Shown piece by piece: positions 11,718 through 34,501 of a stretch of DNA of 64,000 bases (position 1 is the stretch's first letter; each line of letters starts with the position of its first letter). The notes beneath the pieces were generated by a model. That model did no database searches, was not told where the DNA came from, and saw only the letters and a list, made by a program, of their open reading frames with translations. This stretch comes from an uncultured Gemmatimonadota bacterium (GTDB lineage: Bacteria; Gemmatimonadota; Gemmatimonadetes; Gemmatimonadales; Gemmatimonadaceae), in NCBI GenBank assembly GCA_902826615.1, contig CADEFN010000002.1, positions 496,001 through 560,000 of the forward strand, written 5' to 3'. The position numbers were made by a program, and so were the translations under genes.

Positions 11718-14700
11718 TCAGTTCCGCGATACGATGTCGGCCCGCGCTGCTCGGGTAGTTGCGTCCAAGATCCTTGCGGATAGGGCGGCTGTCTCCCGCA
11801 CGTTCCCCTCGAGCTGCCACTCCGCGACTCGAGCAGCATCGCGCATAAGCATAACGCGAATCGATACTCTCTGTTCCGAAACGCGGTATCTTCCGACAAT
11901 AGAGTACGCACTCGGGTAGTCCGCTACATCGAGATAGAGCGGATCCGAGGGCCCTTGAGACTTGCGCGACGACAGAGCATGATCAACCTGCCCCGACAAG
12001 CCCAAGCCGTCGAAGATGTCATCTTCGCTCTGAAACGTCGAGCGAACAAAGACGGCACTCGATCCTGACAAGACGATCCTCTGGCGCGCGTCTGCATCAA
12101 GCCTTCCAATGTCGAAGCCGCGACCTCCCCTCGGAATCGCCAATTCGGGGTGCTGAAGGCCGTGAACGCCCATGGCGAGACGCGGAACGCGTTCGGCCGC
12201 GTCCGTGAGCCAACGCGCAACACCAAGAAACCCTCCGTCCCTGAGCGCGGGTCCCTTCATACCTAAGAGTAGACTGTATGTGAGAACACCATTTCCATAG
12301 GCTGAGGACTCGTAAGCGCGCGCGTCGGCGGCCGATCCGGCCAAGATGTAGACGCCGGTACCGCTTTGCAGTCGTGTGATGGCCTCTGCCTGCTCGCGGT
12401 TTGGATCACCAGCGCGGCTTGCGATAGTGGGTATCACGCGACCTGCGCCACATGTGTCAAGGATGAGTATCTGCTTGGTCGCCTGGCTTCCCTTCAGAAA
12501 CGCTGCGAGTTCACGTCCCGAGACGGTCGTAGCGGCTCGGAGCCATGGATCGGTGATTGCCGTGGTAGCGGCTTCTTGCGTAAGGAAGTAGTAGTCTCCG
12601 CCTGGACCGCCCTCAACCACACCATGCCCAGCGAAGTACAGCACGACGATGTCAGCCGCAGTAACAGATGTGCTAATTCGGTTGAGAGCTGAAACGATCT
12701 GCTGACGAGTGGGTCCGGAAGATCCATCGCGGCCGTTCAGGACGGTCACCTTGATGCTGGCGCTCGGCAGTATGCCTTGACCCGCAATCCGCACCGCCTC
12801 CGCGAAATGTTGAGCATCTTGTGAAGCGAAGCGAAGATCGAGGTCTTCGCCTCTATAGTCGCTCACGCCAACGGCAAGCACCCACATCGTGGGCGCTAAA
12901 GCTCGAGTCCCGCTGCGCCCCACGTCCACCGTTGCAACAGGGGAACTCAGGTGGCTATTCCGGTCATACGCGATAACGGAAAGAAGGTTCTCGCGGCCCC
13001 TGGCGAGAAAAGGATGGCCGGCCAACGGCAGATGAATTAGCAGACTATCGGCAGAGTCCTTCGACTCGAGTTGATCGGCATCGTGCGAGATTTCTTTCCC
13101 GTTAAGCTCAAGAGCTACACGCCCGATACCGCCTCCCCGGTTCTTCACTAACACCGTTGCGCGCGATGTTGTGGTGTCCGCAACCACTACAACCTGCGGC
13201 GGCAACAGAACCCGATCATAACCAGGCGCTGGTGCCTCTATCCGCCGACGTCGTGTCAAGGCCTCCGCAATTAGGTTCGGCCGATAGAATCGTCCTCGCA
13301 GCTGATCCGTTTCCAGCCGTTCCATGCCGGCAAGGATGGCGACTGGCGAGCGGCGTAGGTCTCGTGACGCGTCGAAGCGGTACAAGTGGTCGAACGCCAG
13401 CCAATCCGAGTCTCCCGAACGTACAAGAGTCAGTTCGTCAAACGCATCCTTTCCGCTGACCACTCGCACGGTCGGTCCGACCCCAAACACCAAAAGGTTA
13501 CCTCCAGGGTCCGATTTCGCCCGAAGGACTCCGTCTCGCCACTCGCCAACTTTGGTACCAATTTCGCTGTTCCACGCTAGACGTAGGCGAGAATCACCCA
13601 CGACAACCACCCCGCCGCTCAGCTTTGCTATGGATCGAATGCCCCTAGGGAATACCTGATGGCGGTATAGCAAAGTGCCACTAGTGTCGATGATCGTTAA
13701 GCTGCCATCGGGCCCACCTACCAGCAGCGAGACCGAATCCCGGAAGGCCAGTGCTTCAATGCTCTGGCGAACCTTGGGTTCTTCCCAAGGGTATGCGCTG
13801 GGCTCCCAGAATCCCTCACCGGGCTCGAAGGTCAAGCTGATCCTCCTTCTCGGACCCGTGGCGGGCGAAAGCCTAACTCGCGTGGCAAAAAGGTCGATCG
13901 CGCTGTCTCCGGCCGTTGCAAGCACATCCCCGTCAACAGAGAGAGCTATGGCATTGACGGCTTTACCAGCGAACAGACTATCGACCACCTCGCCGGTGCG
14001 AAGTTCAAAGCGCCGAACTAGGCCCCAATGGTGCGCGACGTAGAAGTACCGAGAGTCGGGGCTAACGCAAACCCCAGTGACTCGAGAGTCAGCGAAATAG
14101 GGAGTCTTGACGTCTGTCAGCTTGATCGAGTGGATTCTTCGTGCGAGCTCAAGCGACCACACTTCAGCCAGCCAAGGGGTGCCGGGTCCTTCTCCCCTTC
14201 CAGGACCCTCACCTGACACTACCGCATATGCGCCGTCGAGCGAGACCGCAACCCGCGCGTCAGCGAAAACGCCGACCTGCTTGCTCCACCGCATCTGACT
14301 GGCGCGCAGCGACCAGTGCTGCAGTGTCCCAGTTTGAGTCGTCGCTACGACCACGTCGCCAGTAGCCGCAACATCGACGTCCGTCACATAGTCGCCAGAC
14401 TCGCCGAGCATCCGCACATGCTCACCGGTCAGCCCTGAGTAGATAGCCGGCTTGCCGTCTGTGAGGACGCTGACGTATGTGCCTCGACTCGAGAACCTCG
14501 CCCAATCGATACGCGTTGCCCTTACGGCTGCCTCCTCGCCGTAGCTGTCACGAAGTAGTACAATGTCGGACTCAGTCGAATCCCCCACGAGTACCTTCGA
14601 GCGGTCTCGAGCTACCGCATAGACCGCGCTCGAACGCCACAAGGAGTCATTTGGCTCTTCGACAGGAGCCAAGCCCCTAGTTGAGACCGACCAGACACTG

Positions 14701-15431
14701 ATCCAGCGACTCGGCCGCATCCATGGACGTTGGGGATGCCTTACCCAAGACTGAGGTAGTGTCGCGATTAGGACACCACCGTCGCTTGCGAACTCCAAGA
14801 CGATTCTCCCCGAGAAATCTTTCTCGGTCGTGCCTTGCCAAGAAGCCAGCCTCTCGCCCGTCGCTAGACTCCAGAGAGAGAGCGCGCCCTTTCTATTCGC
14901 GCCGGCAAGCACACGCTCATCAGGTGAAAACGCCAGCGACACGAGGGAGTCACCGGTGTTCAAGGTTGTGAGAGGAGTGAACCCACCACTCTCCGACGGC
15001 TCACAGATAATGACCGTTGCACCTGAAGCTAGGGCAAGCCTGTCACTGATCGGCGACCAGCTATGTCCGGAGCCCTCGAGGCGCCAAGGTGTTCCTTCAT
15101 CGTCAGCATGTCGTACGACGACCTGACTAGGTACGGACGAAGTAGTGTAGGATAGGTAGTCGCCACTGCGCGAAAGCGCAGCGTCGGCCATGCCCGAGTC
15201 GTTGACGACGAGGAGCTGGGCGCCAGTGTTGATGTCCCAGACGATGATCTCCGCCTCGGACGCCGTTGCCGCATACCGCTCGTCTTCAGAGATGGTGAAA
15301 GAGGAGACCCTTTCGCGCCGTAGATGGCCGGTTTGGGGCACAACTCGCAACCGGGCTCCGGGATGAGGCCGTTGCGCCGACAGCGGAGAAGCTCCTGCCC
15401 AGTGGCCCAGAAGGAGCACTGCGAACCACAT
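11718..15431 (-). CDS. Exported WD40 beta-propeller protein with a C-terminal caspase-like (C14) protease domain
   Basis: The protein has 1237 residues from ATG 15431. The start is placed there because a signal peptide follows directly (MWFAVLLLGHWAGASPLSAQ); a TTG at 15443 is an alternative. Residues of about 35-620 carry WD40-type repeats (e.g. SLAFSPDERVLAGANRKGALSLW, ALSVDGDVLATAGDSAIDLF). The caspase-hemoglobinase fold begins at about 848 (MWVLAVGVSDYRGEDLDLRF). Its catalytic pair is visible: His936 in LYFAGHG and Cys994 in LDTCGAG. A final domain of about 130 residues is unassigned. Codon use is less GC-biased than in flanking genes. It is divergent from an exported unknown protein and a CHASE2 protein, and possibly one system with them. 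With both catalytic residues intact it is predicted to be an active envelope-side protease. Confidence 0.85.
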   Translation of the reverse strand: MWFAVLLLGHWAGASPLSAQRPHPGARLRVVPQTGHLRRERVSSFTISEDERYAATASEAEIIVWDINTGAQLLVVNDSGMADAALSRSGDYLSYTTSSVPSQVVVRHADDEGTPWRLEGSGHSWSPISDRLALASGATVIICEPSESGGFTPLTTLNTGDSLVSLAFSPDERVLAGANRKGALSLWSLATGERLASWQGTTEKDFSGRIVLEFASDGGVLIATLPQSWVRHPQRPWMRPSRWISVWSVSTRGLAPVEEPNDSLWRSSAVYAVARDRSKVLVGDSTESDIVLLRDSYGEEAAVRATRIDWARFSSRGTYVSVLTDGKPAIYSGLTGEHVRMLGESGDYVTDVDVAATGDVVVATTQTGTLQHWSLRASQMRWSKQVGVFADARVAVSLDGAYAVVSGEGPGRGEGPGTPWLAEVWSLELARRIHSIKLTDVKTPYFADSRVTGVCVSPDSRYFYVAHHWGLVRRFELRTGEVVDSLFAGKAVNAIALSVDGDVLATAGDSAIDLFATRVRLSPATGPRRRISLTFEPGEGFWEPSAYPWEEPKVRQSIEALAFRDSVSLLVGGPDGSLTIIDTSGTLLYRHQVFPRGIRSIAKLSGGVVVVGDSRLRLAWNSEIGTKVGEWRDGVLRAKSDPGGNLLVFGVGPTVRVVSGKDAFDELTLVRSGDSDWLAFDHLYRFDASRDLRRSPVAILAGMERLETDQLRGRFYRPNLIAEALTRRRRIEAPAPGYDRVLLPPQVVVVADTTTSRATVLVKNRGGGIGRVALELNGKEISHDADQLESKDSADSLLIHLPLAGHPFLARGRENLLSVIAYDRNSHLSSPVATVDVGRSGTRALAPTMWVLAVGVSDYRGEDLDLRFASQDAQHFAEAVRIAGQGILPSASIKVTVLNGRDGSSGPTRQQIVSALNRISTSVTAADIVVLYFAGHGVVEGGPGGDYYFLTQEAATTAITDPWLRAATTVSGRELAAFLKGSQATKQILILDTCGAGRVIPTIASRAGDPNREQAEAITRLQSGTGVYILAGSAADARAYESSAYGNGVLTYSLLLGMKGPALRDGGFLGVARWLTDAAERVPRLAMGVHGLQHPELAIPRGGRGFDIGRLDADARQRIVLSGSSAVFVRSTFQSEDDIFDGLGLSGQVDHALSSRKSQGPSDPLYLDVADYPSAYSIVGRYRVSEQRVSIRVMLMRDAARVAEWQLEGNVRETAALSARILDATTRAARADIVSRN

Positions 15432-15519
15432 AAACCTGCGCAACTGGCATAAAGCTAGCACGTCGACCTTGCCACAGGTGGGATGGCCATAGAATACTTG
15501 CGCAGTCCGGTTTCGCGCC

Positions 15520-16515
15520 ATGGCAGGCCATGGCTTCTGCATGTTGAGAGTTCGAAGCCCAGATGTGGAGGGTAACGTTATCGCATCGAACAACGGTTGG
15601 TGTTACTCGAAGCGCGCCAGGTTCCTTGCGCATCCAGATCTCGTCGCGAAGTGGGGAATCGCTTCGGCAGTGCTCCTATTGTCGACGGCGGTGCGAGGGC
15701 AGCACACGAACACTTGCGGGCAACCTCCGGGATCCGCGCAGACCTTTGTTTTCGTCCGAGAGCTCTATCCGCCAGTGAACGGTTGGTTGCGCGTTCAATT
15801 GAATCGGCCGCTGTTGGCCGGATCGCTGGTAGGACTCGATGAGACCATTCGACCACTTGCGCGACCCACCCCAACACGAGGCAGAAGGTCGAGAATCGAC
15901 ACAGCGAGGGTCGTCCTGAAGTATTCGTCGGTCACGTTCTCTCATCAGTGCTCACCAATTTCATCCTGCTCGGGCGGTGTCGAGATCTCCAAACTCGTGG
16001 ACAAGACACTGACTCCGGATACGCTCTTCCGACGCGCCGCTGCGGGACAGTGCTCACACCCAGGAATACTTGTTCTGCCAAACAGCAAAGGTCCGGACGC
16101 TGACCTCCAGATTCTGCTCGTGCCCGTCATTGGCGGCGAGATACCAATGGACTCCCTTGTTCGGCGTGTCCCCCGTGGGCTCGTAGGCCACGTCTGTCGC
16201 TTGGATGCCCAGGGTGAAGTGTGCGCGCCTGGGTCAAGCTCGCAGTCTGCATGTCAGGTACTCCGTGGCGCCACCTGCTCGGTCGGACCCTTGGGGCGGG
16301 CAGCGTATCGGCTCGTTATCGCGGACGATCTTGAGGTCTTGCGACCTGTCGAAGCAGTCGTGGTTGCCGTGCCGGAACGCGAGTTTCGCCGGTATCGAGC
16401 GGAAGCTCAGGCAGGATTCGGTGCGATTCGGCGTCTCATGCGCGAGCGGATCGGCGCTGATACACCTACGCATGAAATCAGTCGGCTTGTGGTGGCGTAT
16501 TTGGTGGGCAGCTAG
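15520..16515 (+). CDS. Exported cysteine-containing protein of unknown function
   Basis: The ORF has up to 331 residues. A hydrophobic stretch (WGIASAVLLLSTAVRGQ) at about residues 45-61 looks like a signal peptide, so the real start is probably downstream of 15520; GTG 15563 is one in-frame option. The mature part contains several cysteines (SHQCSPISSCSGG, GHVCRLDAQGEVCAPG), consistent with disulfides in the periplasm. I recognise no family. It is followed after 5 bases by the CHASE2 gene and is divergent from the WD40-caspase gene. Base composition resembles those two genes rather than the rest of the window. Confidence 0.65.
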   Translation: MAGHGFCMLRVRSPDVEGNVIASNNGWCYSKRARFLAHPDLVAKWGIASAVLLLSTAVRGQHTNTCGQPPGSAQTFVFVRELYPPVNGWLRVQLNRPLLAGSLVGLDETIRPLARPTPTRGRRSRIDTARVVLKYSSVTFSHQCSPISSCSGGVEISKLVDKTLTPDTLFRRAAAGQCSHPGILVLPNSKGPDADLQILLVPVIGGEIPMDSLVRRVPRGLVGHVCRLDAQGEVCAPGSSSQSACQVLRGATCSVGPLGRAAYRLVIADDLEVLRPVEAVVVAVPEREFRRYRAEAQAGFGAIRRLMRERIGADTPTHEISRLVVAYLVGS

Positions 16516-16520
16516 CTGAA

Positions 16521-17684
16521 ATGTCCAAAGAACCTAGCACTCACCAACCGCAATCGCTCTTTCGAAACGTGCTCGTGAGGCTCGGCTGGAGGAATCGTGG
16601 ACTGAAGACTTTCGCGTACGGGTTTGGGGGGAGGCGCGGAGCACTCTTTGCGTTGGTCGTCGTCGCCTCCACTTTACTCGGGAAGACAGAAAGTGGAGTC
16701 GCCGCGAGCGACGCCTTAGTCGAGGTTCTCATTCGGCGTGAGCCCCCACAGCCGCCCCGGTACACCGCGCTCGTACTTGTAGATTCTTTGACGCTTCGGA
16801 CCGCCTCCTATCAGGATAGCGCGGGTACGCTGCTGCGCCGAGCACTCGAGCGAATTCGTCTCGGCCTGCCGGCAGTTGTTGTGCTGGATTTGGCGCCGCC
16901 AGAGGGGCGCTTCCCTTGGCTCGACGCGCTCTCTGATGGCCCACCCGTAGTTTTCGGACTGCGGGAGGTGGACGGACAGCTTTCTACAGGAAAGAGCTGG
17001 CTGCGCTTCGCTTCGGCGCACCTTCCACACGCTGCTACGGGGGTGGTTCGCACGCTCGCGATCGCGGATCAGACCGGCGCGTTAGCGCTTCCTGGCGAAG
17101 CTGCGCGACTCTTTTGTTACGGCGTGTCGTCAAACTCCCCTAAGCTCCTCAATCGTCCAGATTCGTGTCTCAGGTTGGCCGTAAGTTCCAACGCATCGTA
17201 CTTCCGTCGCTACGAGTGGCCGACTCACCGGACGCTCGAAACATTCGCATCAGAAGCCGCTGATGTCGCGCAGTTCCGCGATATGATTGTGGTCATCGGG
17301 GCGGCGCCTGATGCGGGATTGGACAATCATGCCACCTCGTTTGGTGTCCAGAGTGGTGCCCTCATTCACGCTAGTGCCATTGAAACATTGCTAGACTCAC
17401 GGGCTTTGCCGACTCGCGTGCCATTGCGCGGCGAGATTGTGGTCAAGGTCGTCCTCGGCGTTCTACTTCTCGCCAGTCACTTCTTCTTCCCCCACTCGCT
17501 GTTTGCGGGCTTCCTGTCCCTGTGCGTTGCGGGCGTCGTGGCTGCAACGGCGCAGTTTACCTTAGATCACATTGGCTGGGTGTTCCCCTACGCAACGACA
17601 ATCCTCGGATTCTGGATCGAAGCGCTTTTCCTGGAGGACGAAGTCCACGGACCGAAGGAGCACGCTCAGCCTCAAGCCGAGTAA
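16521..17684 (+). CDS. CHASE2 domain membrane protein
   Basis: This is a 387-residue protein. One membrane helix lies near residues 38-54 (ALFALVVVASTLLG). A CHASE2-type extracytoplasmic sensor occupies about 70-300, with RLGLPAVVVLDLAPPEG, DMIVVIGAAPDAGLDNHATSF and GVQSGALIHASAIETLLDSR as landmarks. Two or three C-terminal helices follow (VLGVLLLASHFFFPHSLFAG, FLSLCVAGVVAATAQFTL, GWVFPYATTILGFWI). CHASE2 usually feeds a cytosolic kinase, cyclase or protease; here only about 20 residues follow the last helix, so an output partner must be separate. The WD40-caspase and the upstream exported protein are candidates. Confidence 0.8.
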   Translation: MSKEPSTHQPQSLFRNVLVRLGWRNRGLKTFAYGFGGRRGALFALVVVASTLLGKTESGVAASDALVEVLIRREPPQPPRYTALVLVDSLTLRTASYQDSAGTLLRRALERIRLGLPAVVVLDLAPPEGRFPWLDALSDGPPVVFGLREVDGQLSTGKSWLRFASAHLPHAATGVVRTLAIADQTGALALPGEAARLFCYGVSSNSPKLLNRPDSCLRLAVSSNASYFRRYEWPTHRTLETFASEAADVAQFRDMIVVIGAAPDAGLDNHATSFGVQSGALIHASAIETLLDSRALPTRVPLRGEIVVKVVLGVLLLASHFFFPHSLFAGFLSLCVAGVVAATAQFTLDHIGWVFPYATTILGFWIEALFLEDEVHGPKEHAQPQAE

Positions 17685-17790
17685 GGGTACTCCCGAGAGG
17701 TGCCGACTTGAGTGAAACCATTTGGGAGATGCTGCACTTCTCGAAGGAAGACACCTTGACGAGGGCTGTTCACACATACATTCTGCATTT

Positions 17791-17874
17791 ATGATCCTCC
17801 GCGCCACCTGCAGCTATCGCACCGCCACGTATTACGCGCCCTCCACGGGACGCGAGAGGTGGCGTTTGCGTTAG
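17791..17874 (+). CDS. Candidate 27-residue Tyr leader peptide of the phenylalanine hydroxylase gene
   Basis: This short ORF (ATG 17791 to TAG 17874) encodes a 27-residue peptide with three Tyr codons: one at codon 9 (SYRT) and two adjacent at codons 14-15 (TATYYAPS). It contains no Phe. It lies 25 bases before a perfect terminator hairpin that in turn precedes phenylalanine 4-hydroxylase, an enzyme that makes Tyr. There is no Shine-Dalgarno. A possible promoter (TTGACG 17756-17761, TACATT 17777-17782) would start transcription at about the AUG, giving a leaderless message. Reading as a real peptide is inference from context and architecture. Confidence 0.5.
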   Translation: MILRATCSYRTATYYAPSTGRERWRLR

Positions 17875-17898
17875 GCAGATTGCAGCGCGACTCCCTCC

Positions 17899-17937
17899 AG
17901 CGGCCCGTGACGTGTGTCACGGGCCGCTTTTCTTTTG
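17899..17937 (+). terminator. Perfect intrinsic terminator in the leader of phenylalanine hydroxylase (candidate attenuator)
   Basis: Arms 17899-17911 and 17916-17928 form an uninterrupted 13-bp GC-rich stem with a GTGT loop, followed by TTTTCTTTT, ending 2 bases before ATG 17940. It can only terminate transcripts coming from upstream into the hydroxylase gene. An alternative pairing exists: 17844-17853 with 17900-17909 (9 of 10 pairs, one A-G mismatch), which would break the terminator. A further 8-bp hairpin, 17802-17809 with 17857-17864, lies within the leader ORF. This is the layout of transcription attenuation by a translated leader. Confidence 0.7.
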
Positions 17938-17939
17938 CC

Positions 17940-18680
17940 ATGAGGTCCCAGCCAATGTTGTCCACACCACCGGTGCCACTCCTCGAACAGCAGTGGGACA
18001 CCTACACCGCCGATGATCACGACACATGGGACACGCTCGTCACCGGTCGCCTGCTGACGCTACGGACCACCGGTGCCTCCGCGGTGCGCCAGGGCATCGA
18101 GACTCTATGCCTCACAGAGGCTGGTATCCCGAACCTCACTCGGCTGAATCAGACCCTGCAGCCACTTACAGGCTGGAGGGTGGTCGGCGTCGATGGGTAC
18201 CTCGACGCGCGGTCCTTTTTTTCGCTCCTGGCCGAGCGACGCTTCCCCTCCACCACCCACGTTCGGCCCTTCTCGTCGCTGGAATACATCCCCAGCCCCG
18301 ACATCTTTCATGACGTTTTCGGTCACGTGCCCTTGCATGCGCACCCGCCATTCGCGGCAGTGCTGCAGCGCTTTGGTCGGCTGGGCGCGCGTGCCGACAC
18401 GGAGGCCGCGCTTGTCGCGGTGCAGCGGCTCTTCTGGTACACCGTGGAGTTCGGGCTCATCGAGGAAACGGGCGAACCCAGGCTCTACGGTTCAGGCCTG
18501 GTGTCATCCATCGCCGAGGAACGCCAGGCGCTAAACAGCACGTGCGAACGGCGCGCCTTTGACCTGGATGCGGTCATCAACACGCCGTTCGATGTGGAGC
18601 AGGTGCAGCCGGTGTATTTCGTGATCAGAGACTTTGCGGAACTCGCGCATGCACTGAACGAGTTGTCGTCGCGCCACTGA
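17940..18680 (+). CDS. phhA: Phenylalanine 4-hydroxylase
   Basis: This is a 246-residue monomeric-type bacterial phenylalanine hydroxylase, converting L-Phe to L-Tyr with tetrahydropterin, O2 and non-haem iron. The iron ligands are visible: two His in SPDIFHDVFGHVPLHAH and Glu in LFWYTVEFGLIEETGEPR. The catalytic-domain landmarks GWRVVGVDGYLDARSFFSLLAERRFPSTTHVR and GSGLVSS are present. There is no N-terminal ACT regulatory domain, as usual for bacteria. ATG 17955 is an alternative start and is the better match to family length (241 residues). The gene directly follows the leader peptide and terminator hairpin, suggesting regulation by attenuation. It stands alone and is convergent with the TonB receptor gene. 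Confidence 0.92.
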   Translation: MRSQPMLSTPPVPLLEQQWDTYTADDHDTWDTLVTGRLLTLRTTGASAVRQGIETLCLTEAGIPNLTRLNQTLQPLTGWRVVGVDGYLDARSFFSLLAERRFPSTTHVRPFSSLEYIPSPDIFHDVFGHVPLHAHPPFAAVLQRFGRLGARADTEAALVAVQRLFWYTVEFGLIEETGEPRLYGSGLVSSIAEERQALNSTCERRAFDLDAVINTPFDVEQVQPVYFVIRDFAELAHALNELSSRH

Positions 18681-18687
18681 GCCACGC

Positions 18688-18712
18688 TGGCCCGGGCACC
18701 TCGCCCGGGCCA
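18688..18712. terminator. GC-rich hairpin between convergent genes
   Basis: A 10-bp perfect stem (18688-18697 with 18703-18712) with a 5-base loop sits in the 41-base gap between the phenylalanine hydroxylase stop and the TonB receptor stop. There is no U-tract on either strand, so it is a weak or bidirectional terminator or a 3'-end stabiliser. Confidence 0.5.
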
Positions 18713-18721
18713 CGTTGGTGA

Positions 18722-21043
18722 TCAGAACGTGGTGTTGATGCCGAAGAACACCAGACGCTTCTGGCCGGTCATCAAGGTTTCAAGATCGCCGCGCACACTG
18801 AAGCCACCCGTGCCCACAGTCGAAATGAACTCTTCATCGAGCAGGTTGAGCGCGTTCACCTGGAAGGTGAGGGCCTTGAGCCCGCGCGGCTTGATGGTGT
18901 ACCCGGCGGACAGGTCAACCGTGGAATACGACGGCGCCGCGATGTCGTTGAGGATGCTGAAGAAACGCTCGCCAACATGGCGCGCAGCAACCGATCCGGT
19001 GAAGCCACGCTTGACCAGACGCATCGACGTGTTGAAGAGCACCTTCGGCGCATCGACCACCTGCTTCCCGGCAGACGGAATGATGGTGGTGCCGTTGTTG
19101 TAGTCGTCGTCGATCTTGGAGTCGTTGTACGACGCCGCCGTTGTCCAGCTCAGTCCTTCGGCAAGGCGCAGGCTCAGCAGCCCCTCGGCGCCACGTGTGG
19201 TGACCGAGCCCACGTTGGCAAACGAGCTGACGCAGGTCGCGGTGAGCGGGCAGACGGCAACCCCGATCAGACGATTGCGGTAGTCGATGTTGTAGAGCGC
19301 CAGCGACGCTTCCACCCGCGCCGTTCGCGTGCGAAGTCCGAGTTCGTAGGTGTGGGCCTTTTCCGGATCGGTGTTGTCCTTGAAGAACTGGAACGCCGTC
19401 GGGTTGGTGTTGTACACGCCGCTCTGCGGCGAATACGGATAGGCGTTCACATTCTGCGAGTAGTTGGCGAAGACCTGCATCCGTTCGTTCGGCGCGTAGA
19501 CCGCTCCGGCCTGCGTCAGGATGCCACCATCGGTGGGAATGGACACATTCGGGCGCGTGACGTCCGGGGCCGACCCCGCGGTGGGCTCGGTGTTGCCGTT
19601 GTTGGTATAGTCGGCATTGATGCGGAGGTACTTGGCGCCATACGTCAGCTTGAGCTTGTTGGACGCAAGCGTATTGGTGTTCTGCAGGTACACCGTGCGC
19701 GTGCCGATGTCACCAGTCCGGTCGAAGAAGAGCCGCAAGACGTTGTTGAAATCCACCTCGGGGCTGGCCGCAAAGTTGCGCATGCGCCAGGCCACACGAC
19801 GGATGTTCGCCTCGTTGTTTTCGATCCAGGTGCCGCCCTCGAGCGCATTGGGACCGAAGGTTGCCTTGGCACGTGCGGTCACACCGATGCGGCGTGTGTC
19901 GTACTGCGTCTGGCGGAAGTAGATCGGATCGGGGCTGAAGGCAGTCGAGCCGTAGTTGGGAGCGTGCCAATCGCCGGCACCTTCGTTGGTGTGGAAGTAG
20001 GGCTTGATGCTCAGCATGGCGCGCTCGCCGAGCTGGAAGTCACCGCCCAGGTAGCCGAAGTGGTCGCGACGAGCGCCCTGCGCACTGTGAAAGTAGGCCA
20101 GGTCTTCCTGCCCGGAGATCTGCGCCTGCCGCTGGGCGGCCTGCCAGCTCGAGAACTGGTCGTGGTCACGACCCAGCGTATTGAAGCGCGCCAGCGTGAG
20201 GTCGACGTAGTCGGCCTCTGTCTTGTCTGCAAAGTTGTAGTAGGCGGTGAGCTTGCTCGCCCCAAAGAGATACTGCGCCTTGAGGTTCACCTGATCCATC
20301 CACTGCTCGCCCGCGTCCCCGATGAACCCGTTCTGGCCAAAGAGCCCGGCGCTCGCGGGTGAGAAACGCTCCCCGCTCCCCTTCCACTTGTCGGTGTCGT
20401 AGCGGCTGAAGGAGACGTAACCCTTGAAGGCATTGTCCCCGGCCTGCAACAGCCCGGTGTCAAAGCGTCCGCCGGTGCGCCGCGCCGCCGACTGGCCGAA
20501 CATCTGACGCAAGGAGCCGCGACGTTCGTTGGACGGGTCGTCGCTGGTGTACTGGACGACACCGCCGAGGTTGTTGCTGGAGGCCGTGCCTAACGCGCCA
20601 GTCCCCTGTGTGACAGCGGCATCGGCAAGGTTGTCAGCGTCAATCGCCCGCCCGATGTTGAGCCCATTGAAATTGCCGTAGCTCATGTCGCCGAGCGTGA
20701 TTCCGTCAAAGGTCTGCCCGACCTGTGCACTCTGAAAGCCGCGCACGGTCACGCGCGTGGCCCACTCGTACAACCCGAAGGGATCCGCCCCCTGCATGTT
20801 CACCCCGGGCAAACGTTCAATGGCGCGCAGCGGGCTCGTACCCGACGGCGTCACCTGCAAGTCGATTTTCTGAATGGCGTTGCCGGTGCGTGCCTGACCA
20901 AACCCCGTGGCCGACCCCTTCACCTCCACGGTCCGCAACACCTGCATGCTGTCGCGGCGTACACTGTCCGGACGCTGAGCAGCCAGCGGCGCGGTGATGA
21001 TGGCCAACAAGATCCCACTCCCGGTCCAACGGATGATCCGCAT
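18722..21043 (-). CDS. TonB-dependent outer-membrane receptor
   Basis: This is a 773-residue protein. The signal peptide is MRIIRWTGSGILLAIITA, cleaved near LAAQ. The plug spans about residues 45-160 (PLRAIERLPGVNMQGADPFG, RVTVRGFQSAQVGQTFDGI). The barrel ends with KRLVFFGINTTF, a terminal Phe as required for outer-membrane insertion by BamA. The DPFGLYEWATRVTVRGF segment recalls FecA-like siderophore or metal-chelate receptors. No TonB box is certain, though MQVLRTVEVKG is in the right place. The gene is monocistronic, and no regulator or inner-membrane transporter lies beside it, so the ligand is unknown. Confidence 0.92.
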   Translation of the reverse strand: MRIIRWTGSGILLAIITAPLAAQRPDSVRRDSMQVLRTVEVKGSATGFGQARTGNAIQKIDLQVTPSGTSPLRAIERLPGVNMQGADPFGLYEWATRVTVRGFQSAQVGQTFDGITLGDMSYGNFNGLNIGRAIDADNLADAAVTQGTGALGTASSNNLGGVVQYTSDDPSNERRGSLRQMFGQSAARRTGGRFDTGLLQAGDNAFKGYVSFSRYDTDKWKGSGERFSPASAGLFGQNGFIGDAGEQWMDQVNLKAQYLFGASKLTAYYNFADKTEADYVDLTLARFNTLGRDHDQFSSWQAAQRQAQISGQEDLAYFHSAQGARRDHFGYLGGDFQLGERAMLSIKPYFHTNEGAGDWHAPNYGSTAFSPDPIYFRQTQYDTRRIGVTARAKATFGPNALEGGTWIENNEANIRRVAWRMRNFAASPEVDFNNVLRLFFDRTGDIGTRTVYLQNTNTLASNKLKLTYGAKYLRINADYTNNGNTEPTAGSAPDVTRPNVSIPTDGGILTQAGAVYAPNERMQVFANYSQNVNAYPYSPQSGVYNTNPTAFQFFKDNTDPEKAHTYELGLRTRTARVEASLALYNIDYRNRLIGVAVCPLTATCVSSFANVGSVTTRGAEGLLSLRLAEGLSWTTAASYNDSKIDDDYNNGTTIIPSAGKQVVDAPKVLFNTSMRLVKRGFTGSVAARHVGERFFSILNDIAAPSYSTVDLSAGYTIKPRGLKALTFQVNALNLLDEEFISTVGTGGFSVRGDLETLMTGQKRLVFFGINTTF

Positions 21044-21214
21044 GTGTCAAACCCTCGATTCGATGACACGGCGCGGCATGCGCCGTTACGGGGGGAGATT
21101 CCTGTCACATGGTCACGATCGAGTGTCCGAAACGCACATGGCGCGGTAACGGACCGGACACGATCCCATGAGCCCCCATATCTTTCGCGCATTACTGCGC
21201 GGAGTGATCAAGCA

Positions 21215-22402
21215 ATGGAGGCGGTGCGACGACCCACACCCACAACACCCGGCCTCGGCATGGTCCTGGGCGGTGGAGGTGCACGGGGCGCCTATCAGGT
21301 CGGCCTGCTGCGCGCCATCGCGCGACGGTACCCACACCTGCAGGTCCCCATCCTGGTGGGCGTGTCGGCGGGCGCAGTGAACACCACCCACATCGCGTCC
21401 CATCGCGGCACCTTTGCCGACTGCATGGAAGACCTCGTGCGTCACTGGTGTTCGATGACACCCGACCAGGTGTTTCGTGTCGACGCGTCGTCCCTCGCCA
21501 CCAACGTGCTTCGCTCCGGCTTCCGGCTTGTGGCCGGTGGACAAGCCCACCCCGAGCAATTCCGCGGCATGGTGGACACCGAACCCCTGCGCCATTTCCT
21601 GCACCGTGTGCTGGAACCGGCCGCCGATGGGTCATTGCCCGGCATCGACCACAACCTGCAGCGCGGCTCCCTGCGCGCCGTCGCCCTCTGCGCCACGAGT
21701 TACACCACATCGCAGAGCGTGACCTGGGTTCAGGGCCGCGGCATCGCCACGTGGGAGCGCCCGCAGCGACGTGCGGAGCAGGCGCAGCTCTCGGTCGAAC
21801 ATGTGATGGCCTCCACGGCCCTGCCGCTCCTCTTTCCGGCAGCACGAGTGGGCAGCGAATGGTTTGGTGACGGAGGCATCCGGCTCACCGCGCCACTGTC
21901 GCCCGCCCTCCACCTCGGCGCCTCGCGCATCATTACCATCTCCACGCGCTACGATCGTTCGCAGGCCGAAGCCGACCGACCACAGGTTGCCGGGTACCCC
22001 CCACCGGCCCAGGTGCTTGGCGTCCTGTACAACGCCGTGTTTCTCGACCTGATCGATCAGGACGTGGTGCGACTGGAGCGCCTCAACAAGCTCGTCGAAC
22101 GAATGCCCGTCGATCAACGTGCGGGACTGCGAGTGGTGGACATGCTCGTCCTGCGTCCCTCACGCGATCTTGGCCGACTGGCCAGCGAGTACGAGCCGCG
22201 ACTCCCGCGTGTCTTTCGCTTTCTCACGCGCGGACTTGGCACCAAGCGAACGGAGAGTCCGGACATTTTGTCGCTGGTCATGTTCCAGGAGGACTACCTG
22301 CGACGCCTGATCGAGCTGGGAGAGTCCGACGCCGAACGGCAGTGGGAACGGATCGCGCCCTTCATTGAAGCGGAGCCGGAACGAATTTCGGCAGTACGCT
22401 AA
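21215..22402 (+). CDS. Patatin-like phospholipase
   Basis: This is a 395-residue protein. The complete patatin active site is visible: oxyanion loop GGGGARGAYQVGL near residue 15, nucleophile Ser in VGVSAGAVN (GxSxG), and Asp in GDGGIRLTAPLSPA (DGG/A motif). It should hydrolyse acyl esters of phospholipids. It has no signal peptide, so it is cytosolic or secreted by another route. ATG 21215 has GGAG about 10 bases upstream; the open frame extends to 21044 but that part overlaps the divergent receptor promoter and has no family similarity. Its stop codon overlaps the -35 of the sigma-28-like promoter for the next gene. Confidence 0.9.
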   Translation: MEAVRRPTPTTPGLGMVLGGGGARGAYQVGLLRAIARRYPHLQVPILVGVSAGAVNTTHIASHRGTFADCMEDLVRHWCSMTPDQVFRVDASSLATNVLRSGFRLVAGGQAHPEQFRGMVDTEPLRHFLHRVLEPAADGSLPGIDHNLQRGSLRAVALCATSYTTSQSVTWVQGRGIATWERPQRRAEQAQLSVEHVMASTALPLLFPAARVGSEWFGDGGIRLTAPLSPALHLGASRIITISTRYDRSQAEADRPQVAGYPPPAQVLGVLYNAVFLDLIDQDVVRLERLNKLVERMPVDQRAGLRVVDMLVLRPSRDLGRLASEYEPRLPRVFRFLTRGLGTKRTESPDILSLVMFQEDYLRRLIELGESDAERQWERIAPFIEAEPERISAVR

Positions 22403-33750: not shown

Positions 33751-33898
33751 GCGATGCTCTCCGTGACCGAAGTGTCCAAGGGGATGGGAGACGCTGTTGC
33801 GCGCGGGCCGCGAGGGCAAGAGGGTTCGACCGACGCCCGGGTCGGGTGAGCCCGGTTGCGTGCGCCGCCAGGCCACCTGGCATTCGGGCCATCAAGGC

Positions 33899-33928
33899 AA
33901 AAAAAGGGGCACCCTCGTGGGGTGCCCC
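33899..33928 (-). terminator. Intrinsic terminator for the minus-strand gene at 33965-34501
   Basis: On the minus strand a 9-bp stem (33906-33914 with 33920-33928) is followed by seven T residues (33899-33905 on the plus strand are A). It lies 36 bases past the stop of the unknown gene at 33965. Confidence 0.85.
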
Positions 33929-33964
33929 GGACTTCACCAACGCTCTGACAGATCAGATCGCTGT

Positions 33965-34501
33965 TCAGTCTCCTTCGGTGTCGACACCGATGCCGTCGGC
34001 CGAGCGATAGCTGTCGAGGAACGAGTCGGACTGCGCTCCCGCGATTGCCGGCGCGACTGCTGTTGAGGTGAGAGTGAAGCTGATGGCCCGCCGGGTGCCT
34101 TCAGGCCAGTCGGGCATCGTCAGCCCGGCGATGAGCCGCCGGATTGATCCGCCGCATTCGAGCATGAGATGCGTCCCGGTGTTCTTCAACGTGTCCATGG
34201 GGATTACCACATCACGCGTGGCGAGTGCCCCAGCCTCGTCACGCCAGGCCGCATCTCCCACCGCTCCGCGCTCCGGCCAGAGCGCGACGTGTCGGATCGT
34301 CTCCGAACGTTCGCTGGGCTCTCGTCGTGCCTCGACCGCTGCCGCCAATGCCAGCGCCAGGAGCTCCGGTGTGGGATCGCCATACAGCGTCACCACGTCC
34401 CGAGACGGGCGTTCAGAATTGAGCGGCGACGGCACGGAGTTCACGTGCGCGAGCACCGTCGAGTGTTCGGGGCGATCCTCTACCATCACGAGGACGTCCA
34501 T
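33965..34501 (-). CDS. Hypothetical cytosolic protein
   Basis: This is a 178-residue protein, no family recognised. It opens MDVLVMVEDRPEHSTVLAHV, has DVVTLYGDPTPELLALALAAAVEARREPSERSE in the middle, and ends with an acidic tail. No signal peptide, membrane helix or repeat is visible. The start is decided by a strong Shine-Dalgarno (GAGGAGG) 7 bases before ATG 34501; the open frame upstream has no such site. It has its own terminator, so it is a single-gene unit, divergent from the OmpR-type regulator. Confidence 0.65.
   Translation of the reverse strand: MDVLVMVEDRPEHSTVLAHVNSVPSPLNSERPSRDVVTLYGDPTPELLALALAAAVEARREPSERSETIRHVALWPERGAVGDAAWRDEAGALATRDVVIPMDTLKNTGTHLMLECGGSIRRLIAGLTMPDWPEGTRRAISFTLTSTAVAPAIAGAQSDSFLDSYRSADGIGVDTEGD

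Follow-up and report, generated by a model that had tools for sequence, protein, structure and literature searches.

Expression of phhA, an aromatic amino acid (phenylalanine-4-) hydroxylase gene of an uncultured Gemmatimonadota bacterium, is very probably controlled by transcription attenuation of the ribosome-mediated (leader-peptide) type, with charged tRNA-Tyr as the signal, as judged from comparative sequence analysis. The gene lies in the window, the 64,000-nucleotide stretch of DNA analyzed here, and its leader has the parts of an attenuator: an upstream open reading frame (uORF) enriched in codons for the product, an intrinsic terminator before the gene, an antiterminator that excludes the terminator, and a protector hairpin beside the control codons. 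The same reading was offered as a candidate in an initial annotation of the window, and it is supported by conserved Tyr codons followed by a terminator, by three covarying helices, and by leader codons that match the downstream operon.

Anatomy of the phhA leader

The features of the leader and its gene are as follows (window coordinates).

17756–17784 (+): putative promoter, with the −35 element TTGACG (17756–17761), a 17-nt spacer and the −10-like box CATTCT (17779–17784); assigned from sequence and from position across leaders
17791–17874 (+): leader peptide uORF of 27 codons, MILRATCSYRTATYYAPSTGRERWRLR and stop, with Tyr codons at 17815, 17830 and 17833; assigned from sequence and conservation
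17836–17841 (+): region 1, GCGCCC, immediately 3' of the Tyr pair; partner of region 2 in the protector hairpin (covariation of helix 1:2)
17844–17853 (+): region 2, CACGGGACGC, common to the protector hairpin (1:2) and the antiterminator (2:3) (covariation of helix 2:3)
17899–17911 (+): region 3, 5' arm of the terminator, of which 17900–17909 is the alternative partner of region 2
17916–17936 (+): region 4, 3' arm of the terminator (17916–17928) plus the T run (17928–17936) (covariation of helix 3:4)
17942–17945 (+): likely Shine-Dalgarno sequence of phhA, GAGG, read from the sequence
17955–18680 (+): phhA, 241 aa (Pfam Biopterin_H, PF00351)

The 27-codon uORF with three Tyr codons, two of them adjacent, is present as first annotated, and so is the terminator, a perfect 13-bp stem (17899–17911 with 17916–17928; loop GTGT; TTTTCTTTT) followed by a T run. 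This hairpin is the strongest terminator-like site within positions 16000–22000, and no other + strand stem in the window is perfect over 13 bp or more and followed by a T tail. Single-sequence folding of the leader compared with chance gave z = −4.2. The T run had been placed two bases before the hydroxylase ATG at 17940 and actually ends at 17936, three bases (GCC) before it. That ATG has no Shine-Dalgarno sequence, and we prefer the in-frame ATG at 17955 with GAGG at 17942–17945 as the start; the terminator therefore ends about 18 nt upstream of phhA, whose product matches Biopterin_H (PF00351) over residues 17–237 (E 5.8e-42). The proposed alternative pairing of 17844–17853 with 17900–17909 is found in nine of ten positions, the mismatch being A.G. 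An 8-bp leader hairpin (17802–17809 with 17857–17864) had been suggested to complete the layout; it exists in this sequence, but by eye it has no clear counterpart elsewhere, with a partial one in L002 only, and the conserved protector hairpin is instead formed by 17836–17841 (GCGCCC) and 17847–17853 (GGGACGC).

A sigma-70 scan at a strict threshold found no promoter at the leader, and the promoter was therefore assessed from its placement in the set of leaders. In 27/29 leaders the distance from the end of the −10-like box to the uORF ATG is 5–10 nt (7 nt in 13 of them), many of these leaders have TTGACA/G 17 nt upstream of the box, and in the window the uORF ATG starts 6 nt downstream of CATTCT. 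Because the box is so close to the ATG, the uORF is probably leaderless, with a transcript starting at or beside its start codon. Rfam returned no match at gathering score anywhere in the window and nothing credible, T-box included, at E ≤ 1 in 17740–17960; the leaders of other members of the scaffold described below match no Rfam family either.

Conservation, covariation and control codons

The search for phhA covered 99 relatives as well as 395 genomes of the phylum. Close orthologs (E ≤ 1e-55) were found in 43 genomes, 42 of which have upstream DNA, and a Tyr-rich uORF followed by a terminator precedes phhA in 28 of the 42 (L036 included), so that the reading survived the objection that relatives might keep phhA with neither the Tyr codons nor the terminator. 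The element is absent from the remaining 14 orthologs, which belong to four genera; at ~40% identity, phhA genes of this phylum mostly lack it as well. A distant phhA (L017) has a Cys-rich uORF, MVRICTVGRIMCCLEWFRGCGRVHRL, and a terminator, which lie ~220–75 bases upstream of where the phhA match begins (797). Over 29 leaders, 100 of 778 codons (12.9%) encode Tyr and none carries fewer than two (binomial P about 5e-40 at an assumed background of 2.5%, relatedness ignored). Three Tyr in 27 codons in the window alone are weak evidence against chance, and the comparative sequence data strengthen the finding well beyond what the window by itself could provide.

In a 29-leader alignment, each of the three competing helices was tested as a named structure, with 500 shuffles and with controls in which the partner was slid 1–3 columns. 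Helix 1:2 shows 91% pairing and 11 double-changed cells, a result that 0/500 shuffles matched, also on covariation score. Helices 2:3 (84% paired) and 3:4 (93% paired) each have 7 pairs changed on both sides, and 0/500 shuffles reached either double-changed count, although all these counts are inflated by relatedness and are to be read as support, not as probabilities. Pairing fell to 26–52% in the slid controls. Compensatory changes were thus seen in all three helices of the aligned leaders; by eye, regions 1 and 2 pair as UUCG/CGAA in L005 and L006 and as GCG/CGC elsewhere, and regions 2 and 3 as GCU/AGC in L042 and as CGC/GCG elsewhere. RNAalifold applied to all 29 leaders recovered part of the terminator only, since it is misled by two misaligned leaders (L019 and L066) and by competition between the alternative helices; counting on named structures was used for this reason.

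We built a covariance model from nothing but phhA leaders, the 27 that aligned best, and it matches 152/395 genomes of the phylum at E ≤ 1e-3. We fetched 59 further matches, nearly all of which lie upstream of amino-acid genes, and their codons agree with the operon. Tyr codons occur in front of aroF-tyrA or chorismate mutase-tyrA (mean 4.1 per leader, and 3.3 in the phhA leaders), Phe codons in front of pheA (mean 4.1), both Tyr and Phe codons in front of aroF alone or aroF-pheA, His codons in front of hisG-hisD (mean 6.3), and Thr codons in front of an aspartokinase gene, thrA (mean 10.3), whose homoserine dehydrogenase part was judged from its sequence. The window's own genome contains a second match (L194; contig C1 302657–302782, − strand) before hisG-hisD, where the shared scaffold encodes a His-rich leader peptide, MNLYSRHHHAHHVHGHLGLGGSGVR. 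In L221, L224, L241 and L243, runs of as many as seven Thr codons were observed before the aspartokinase (homoserine dehydrogenase-type) gene. A weak model match within the window (33898–34015, − strand) was rejected as a terminator after another gene, located 5' of an elongation-factor-like GTPase gene and with no Tyr-rich leader. Nothing supports a sensor role of the Tyr codons more strongly than this exchange of control codons on one scaffold, since the same scaffold carries Tyr, Phe, His or Thr in agreement with the operon.

This exchange also bears on the possibility that the leader peptide senses free tyrosine through nascent-peptide arrest (TnaC/ErmC-like) and not charged tRNA. A conceivable peptide motif exists in the C-terminal tail TGRxRRRxR, which is well conserved in the leaders, but region 2 and adjoining conserved RNA encode these residues, and base pairing therefore explains their conservation. 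The N-terminus of the peptide is not conserved, the replacement of Tyr by His, Phe or Thr fits codon sensing and not a single binding site, and arrest by free Tyr would have the wrong sign for a Tyr-making enzyme, all of which renders this explanation highly improbable.

Ribosome positions and the proposed switch

The ribosome positions, left undefined in the initial annotation, were worked out with fold predictions in which region 4 was still untranscribed and a ribosome footprint was placed on each codon of each leader in turn. In these predictions, Tyr stalls open the antiterminator, and a ribosome at the stop codon usually does not. Predicted 2:3 pairing averages 8.2 bp with the A site on Tyr codons and 2.3 bp at the stop; in the window's own leader it amounts to 8.9, 8.9 and 7.8 bp at the three Tyr stalls and 0 at the stop. 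The antiterminator is permissive at some Tyr codon in 26/27 leaders, and 82/92 Tyr codons fall inside the permissive interval (about 40 expected); the last Tyr codon is usually found at the 3' border of that interval, 13–17 nt upstream of the region 2 GGG. As exceptions, 7/27 leaders still allow 2:3 pairing with the ribosome at the stop codon in this simple fold. In the fold with no ribosome, region 1 pairs with region 2, and region 3 is left free for the terminator. When the full-length RNA 3' of a Tyr stall is folded at equilibrium, the terminator wins, and the switch decision predicted by this model must therefore be kinetic, like that of other attenuators.

The fold model also predicts that stalls upstream of the Tyr codons would open the antiterminator, as would be expected if these codons were incidental and the leader reported general translation or transcription-translation coupling. 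Such a general sensor is likewise highly improbable, given the Tyr enrichment, with at least two Tyr codons in every leader, and the other codons carried by leaders before his, thr and pheA operons. Equally improbable is the idea that the uORF is a chance ORF and the hairpin merely the end terminator of the CHASE2 gene (16521–17684, +), which has the same orientation and whose end is 215 bp upstream of the hairpin: this gene was found at no other phhA locus tested while the uORF, antiterminator arm and terminator remain, helices 1:2 and 2:3 covary, and the same element occurs upstream of other amino-acid operons. Because the CHASE2 gene is missing from every other phhA locus tested, we take the hairpin, on this comparative basis, to belong to phhA and not to an unrelated upstream transcript. 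Near the CHASE2 gene, the − strand (11718–15593) contains a 1291-aa ORF whose product, by eye, resembles WD40 repeats with a caspase-like protease domain after them.

For the charged-tRNA attenuator, we infer the following course of initiation, termination, Tyr dependence and direction of response. Transcription would begin at or next to the uORF ATG, and Tyr limitation is assumed to be sensed via tRNA charging. When Tyr is short, a ribosome would stall at the Tyr codons (17815, 17830, 17833) and cover region 1 (17836–17841), leaving region 2 (17844–17853) free to pair with region 3 (17900–17909) during transcription; the 2:3 helix would then block the terminator, phhA would be transcribed, and Tyr would be made from Phe. 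When Tyr is plentiful, the ribosome would pass on and region 2 would be held in the 1:2 hairpin or be otherwise unavailable, such that the terminator helix 3:4 could form and stop transcription at the T run; the same outcome is expected when no ribosome is present.

Tyrosine supply and relation to known attenuators

Bacterial phenylalanine hydroxylase is often classed as catabolic. The genome studied here (G000) has the shikimate pathway, with DAHP synthase and chorismate synthase, but we found in it no prephenate dehydrogenase domain (PDH_N) at E ≤ 0.1 and no full-length TyrA; prephenate dehydratase was likewise not found. TyrA is present in a congener (G002) that is without this phhA. Because the chorismate route is present with no detectable prephenate dehydrogenase, phhA is probably the biosynthetic Tyr enzyme of this genome and a plausible main source of its Tyr. 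Across the phylum, PDH_N (E ≤ 1e-8) occurs in 12/28 genomes with attenuated phhA and in 242/367 others (Fisher p about 0.02, relatedness ignored), a weak trend toward rarity in the former. These 12 genomes weaken the idea of a strict replacement of tyrA by attenuated phhA, and some genomes contain Tyr-attenuated phhA and tyrA together. A biosynthetic role of the hydroxylase is known from Dyella, Echinicola and Legionella, with gene-fitness data for Dyella and Echinicola (PMC7311316).

Tyr-rich uORFs followed by a terminator were also found at 7/30 phhA loci of Bacteroidota (L256, L257, L259, L260, L263, L265 and L278), with peptide stretches such as YYYYY or IYYPAYY. Because their sequences are unrelated to the scaffold of the phylum studied here, Tyr control of phhA probably arose more than once, and the Bacteroidota cases represent apparent convergence.

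Leader-peptide attenuators are a classical mechanism class. Like the his, pheA, thr and trp attenuators of Enterobacteria, the phhA element combines a short uORF rich in codons for the operon product with protector, antiterminator and terminator helices and an intrinsic terminator before the first gene. It differs from them in being Tyr-specific and targeting phenylalanine hydroxylase, in its stop codon 3' of region 2, which therefore lies inside the uORF, in a uORF that is probably leaderless, and in a scaffold common to Tyr, Phe, His and Thr operons. The trpL/rnTrpL leader of Sinorhizobium meliloti (PMC7298713) is likewise a leaderless ORF whose transcript starts at the ATG, with stalling at end-product codons, but it is Trp-specific, targets trpE(G) and is unrelated in sequence. 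Tyrosine T-box elements share RNA-level control of Tyr genes, whereas the phhA element would sense through a translated uORF and matches no Rfam family.

A survey of Actinobacteria listed Tyr as T-box-regulated and Phe, His and Thr as attenuator-regulated, with no conserved RNA element found before Tyr or Phe operons of Actinobacteria; its Trp, Cys and branched-chain elements are also cases of leader peptide regulation outside Proteobacteria but concern other amino acids (PMC1262725). A 2010 terminator survey knew leader peptides only in Proteobacteria, Actinobacteria and, newly, Firmicutes (PMC2965389), and Tyr control elsewhere has been ascribed to the TyrR/PhhR proteins (PMC1173090). In the openly accessible literature searched, we found no Tyr-specific leader-peptide attenuator and, in agreement with the initial annotation, no attenuator of phenylalanine hydroxylase; a search for leader peptides in Gemmatimonas gave nothing relevant. 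A Tyr-specific leader-peptide attenuator, phhA as its target and a re-coded shared scaffold thus appear undescribed in that literature.

We slightly favor a scenario, drawn from these sequence patterns, in which copies of one scaffold spread among operons and took on new specificity solely through changed control codons (Tyr, Phe, His, Thr), giving phylum-wide modular amino-acid switches, and in which phenylalanine hydroxylase acquired the Tyr module in lineages where an animal-like Phe-to-Tyr route replaced prephenate dehydrogenase. The re-coded scaffold is a natural experiment on the evolution of attenuator specificity, and it aids annotation in that the leader codons name the operon product. 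For this bacterium, the element argues that phenylalanine hydroxylase is a regulated tyrosine-biosynthetic enzyme.
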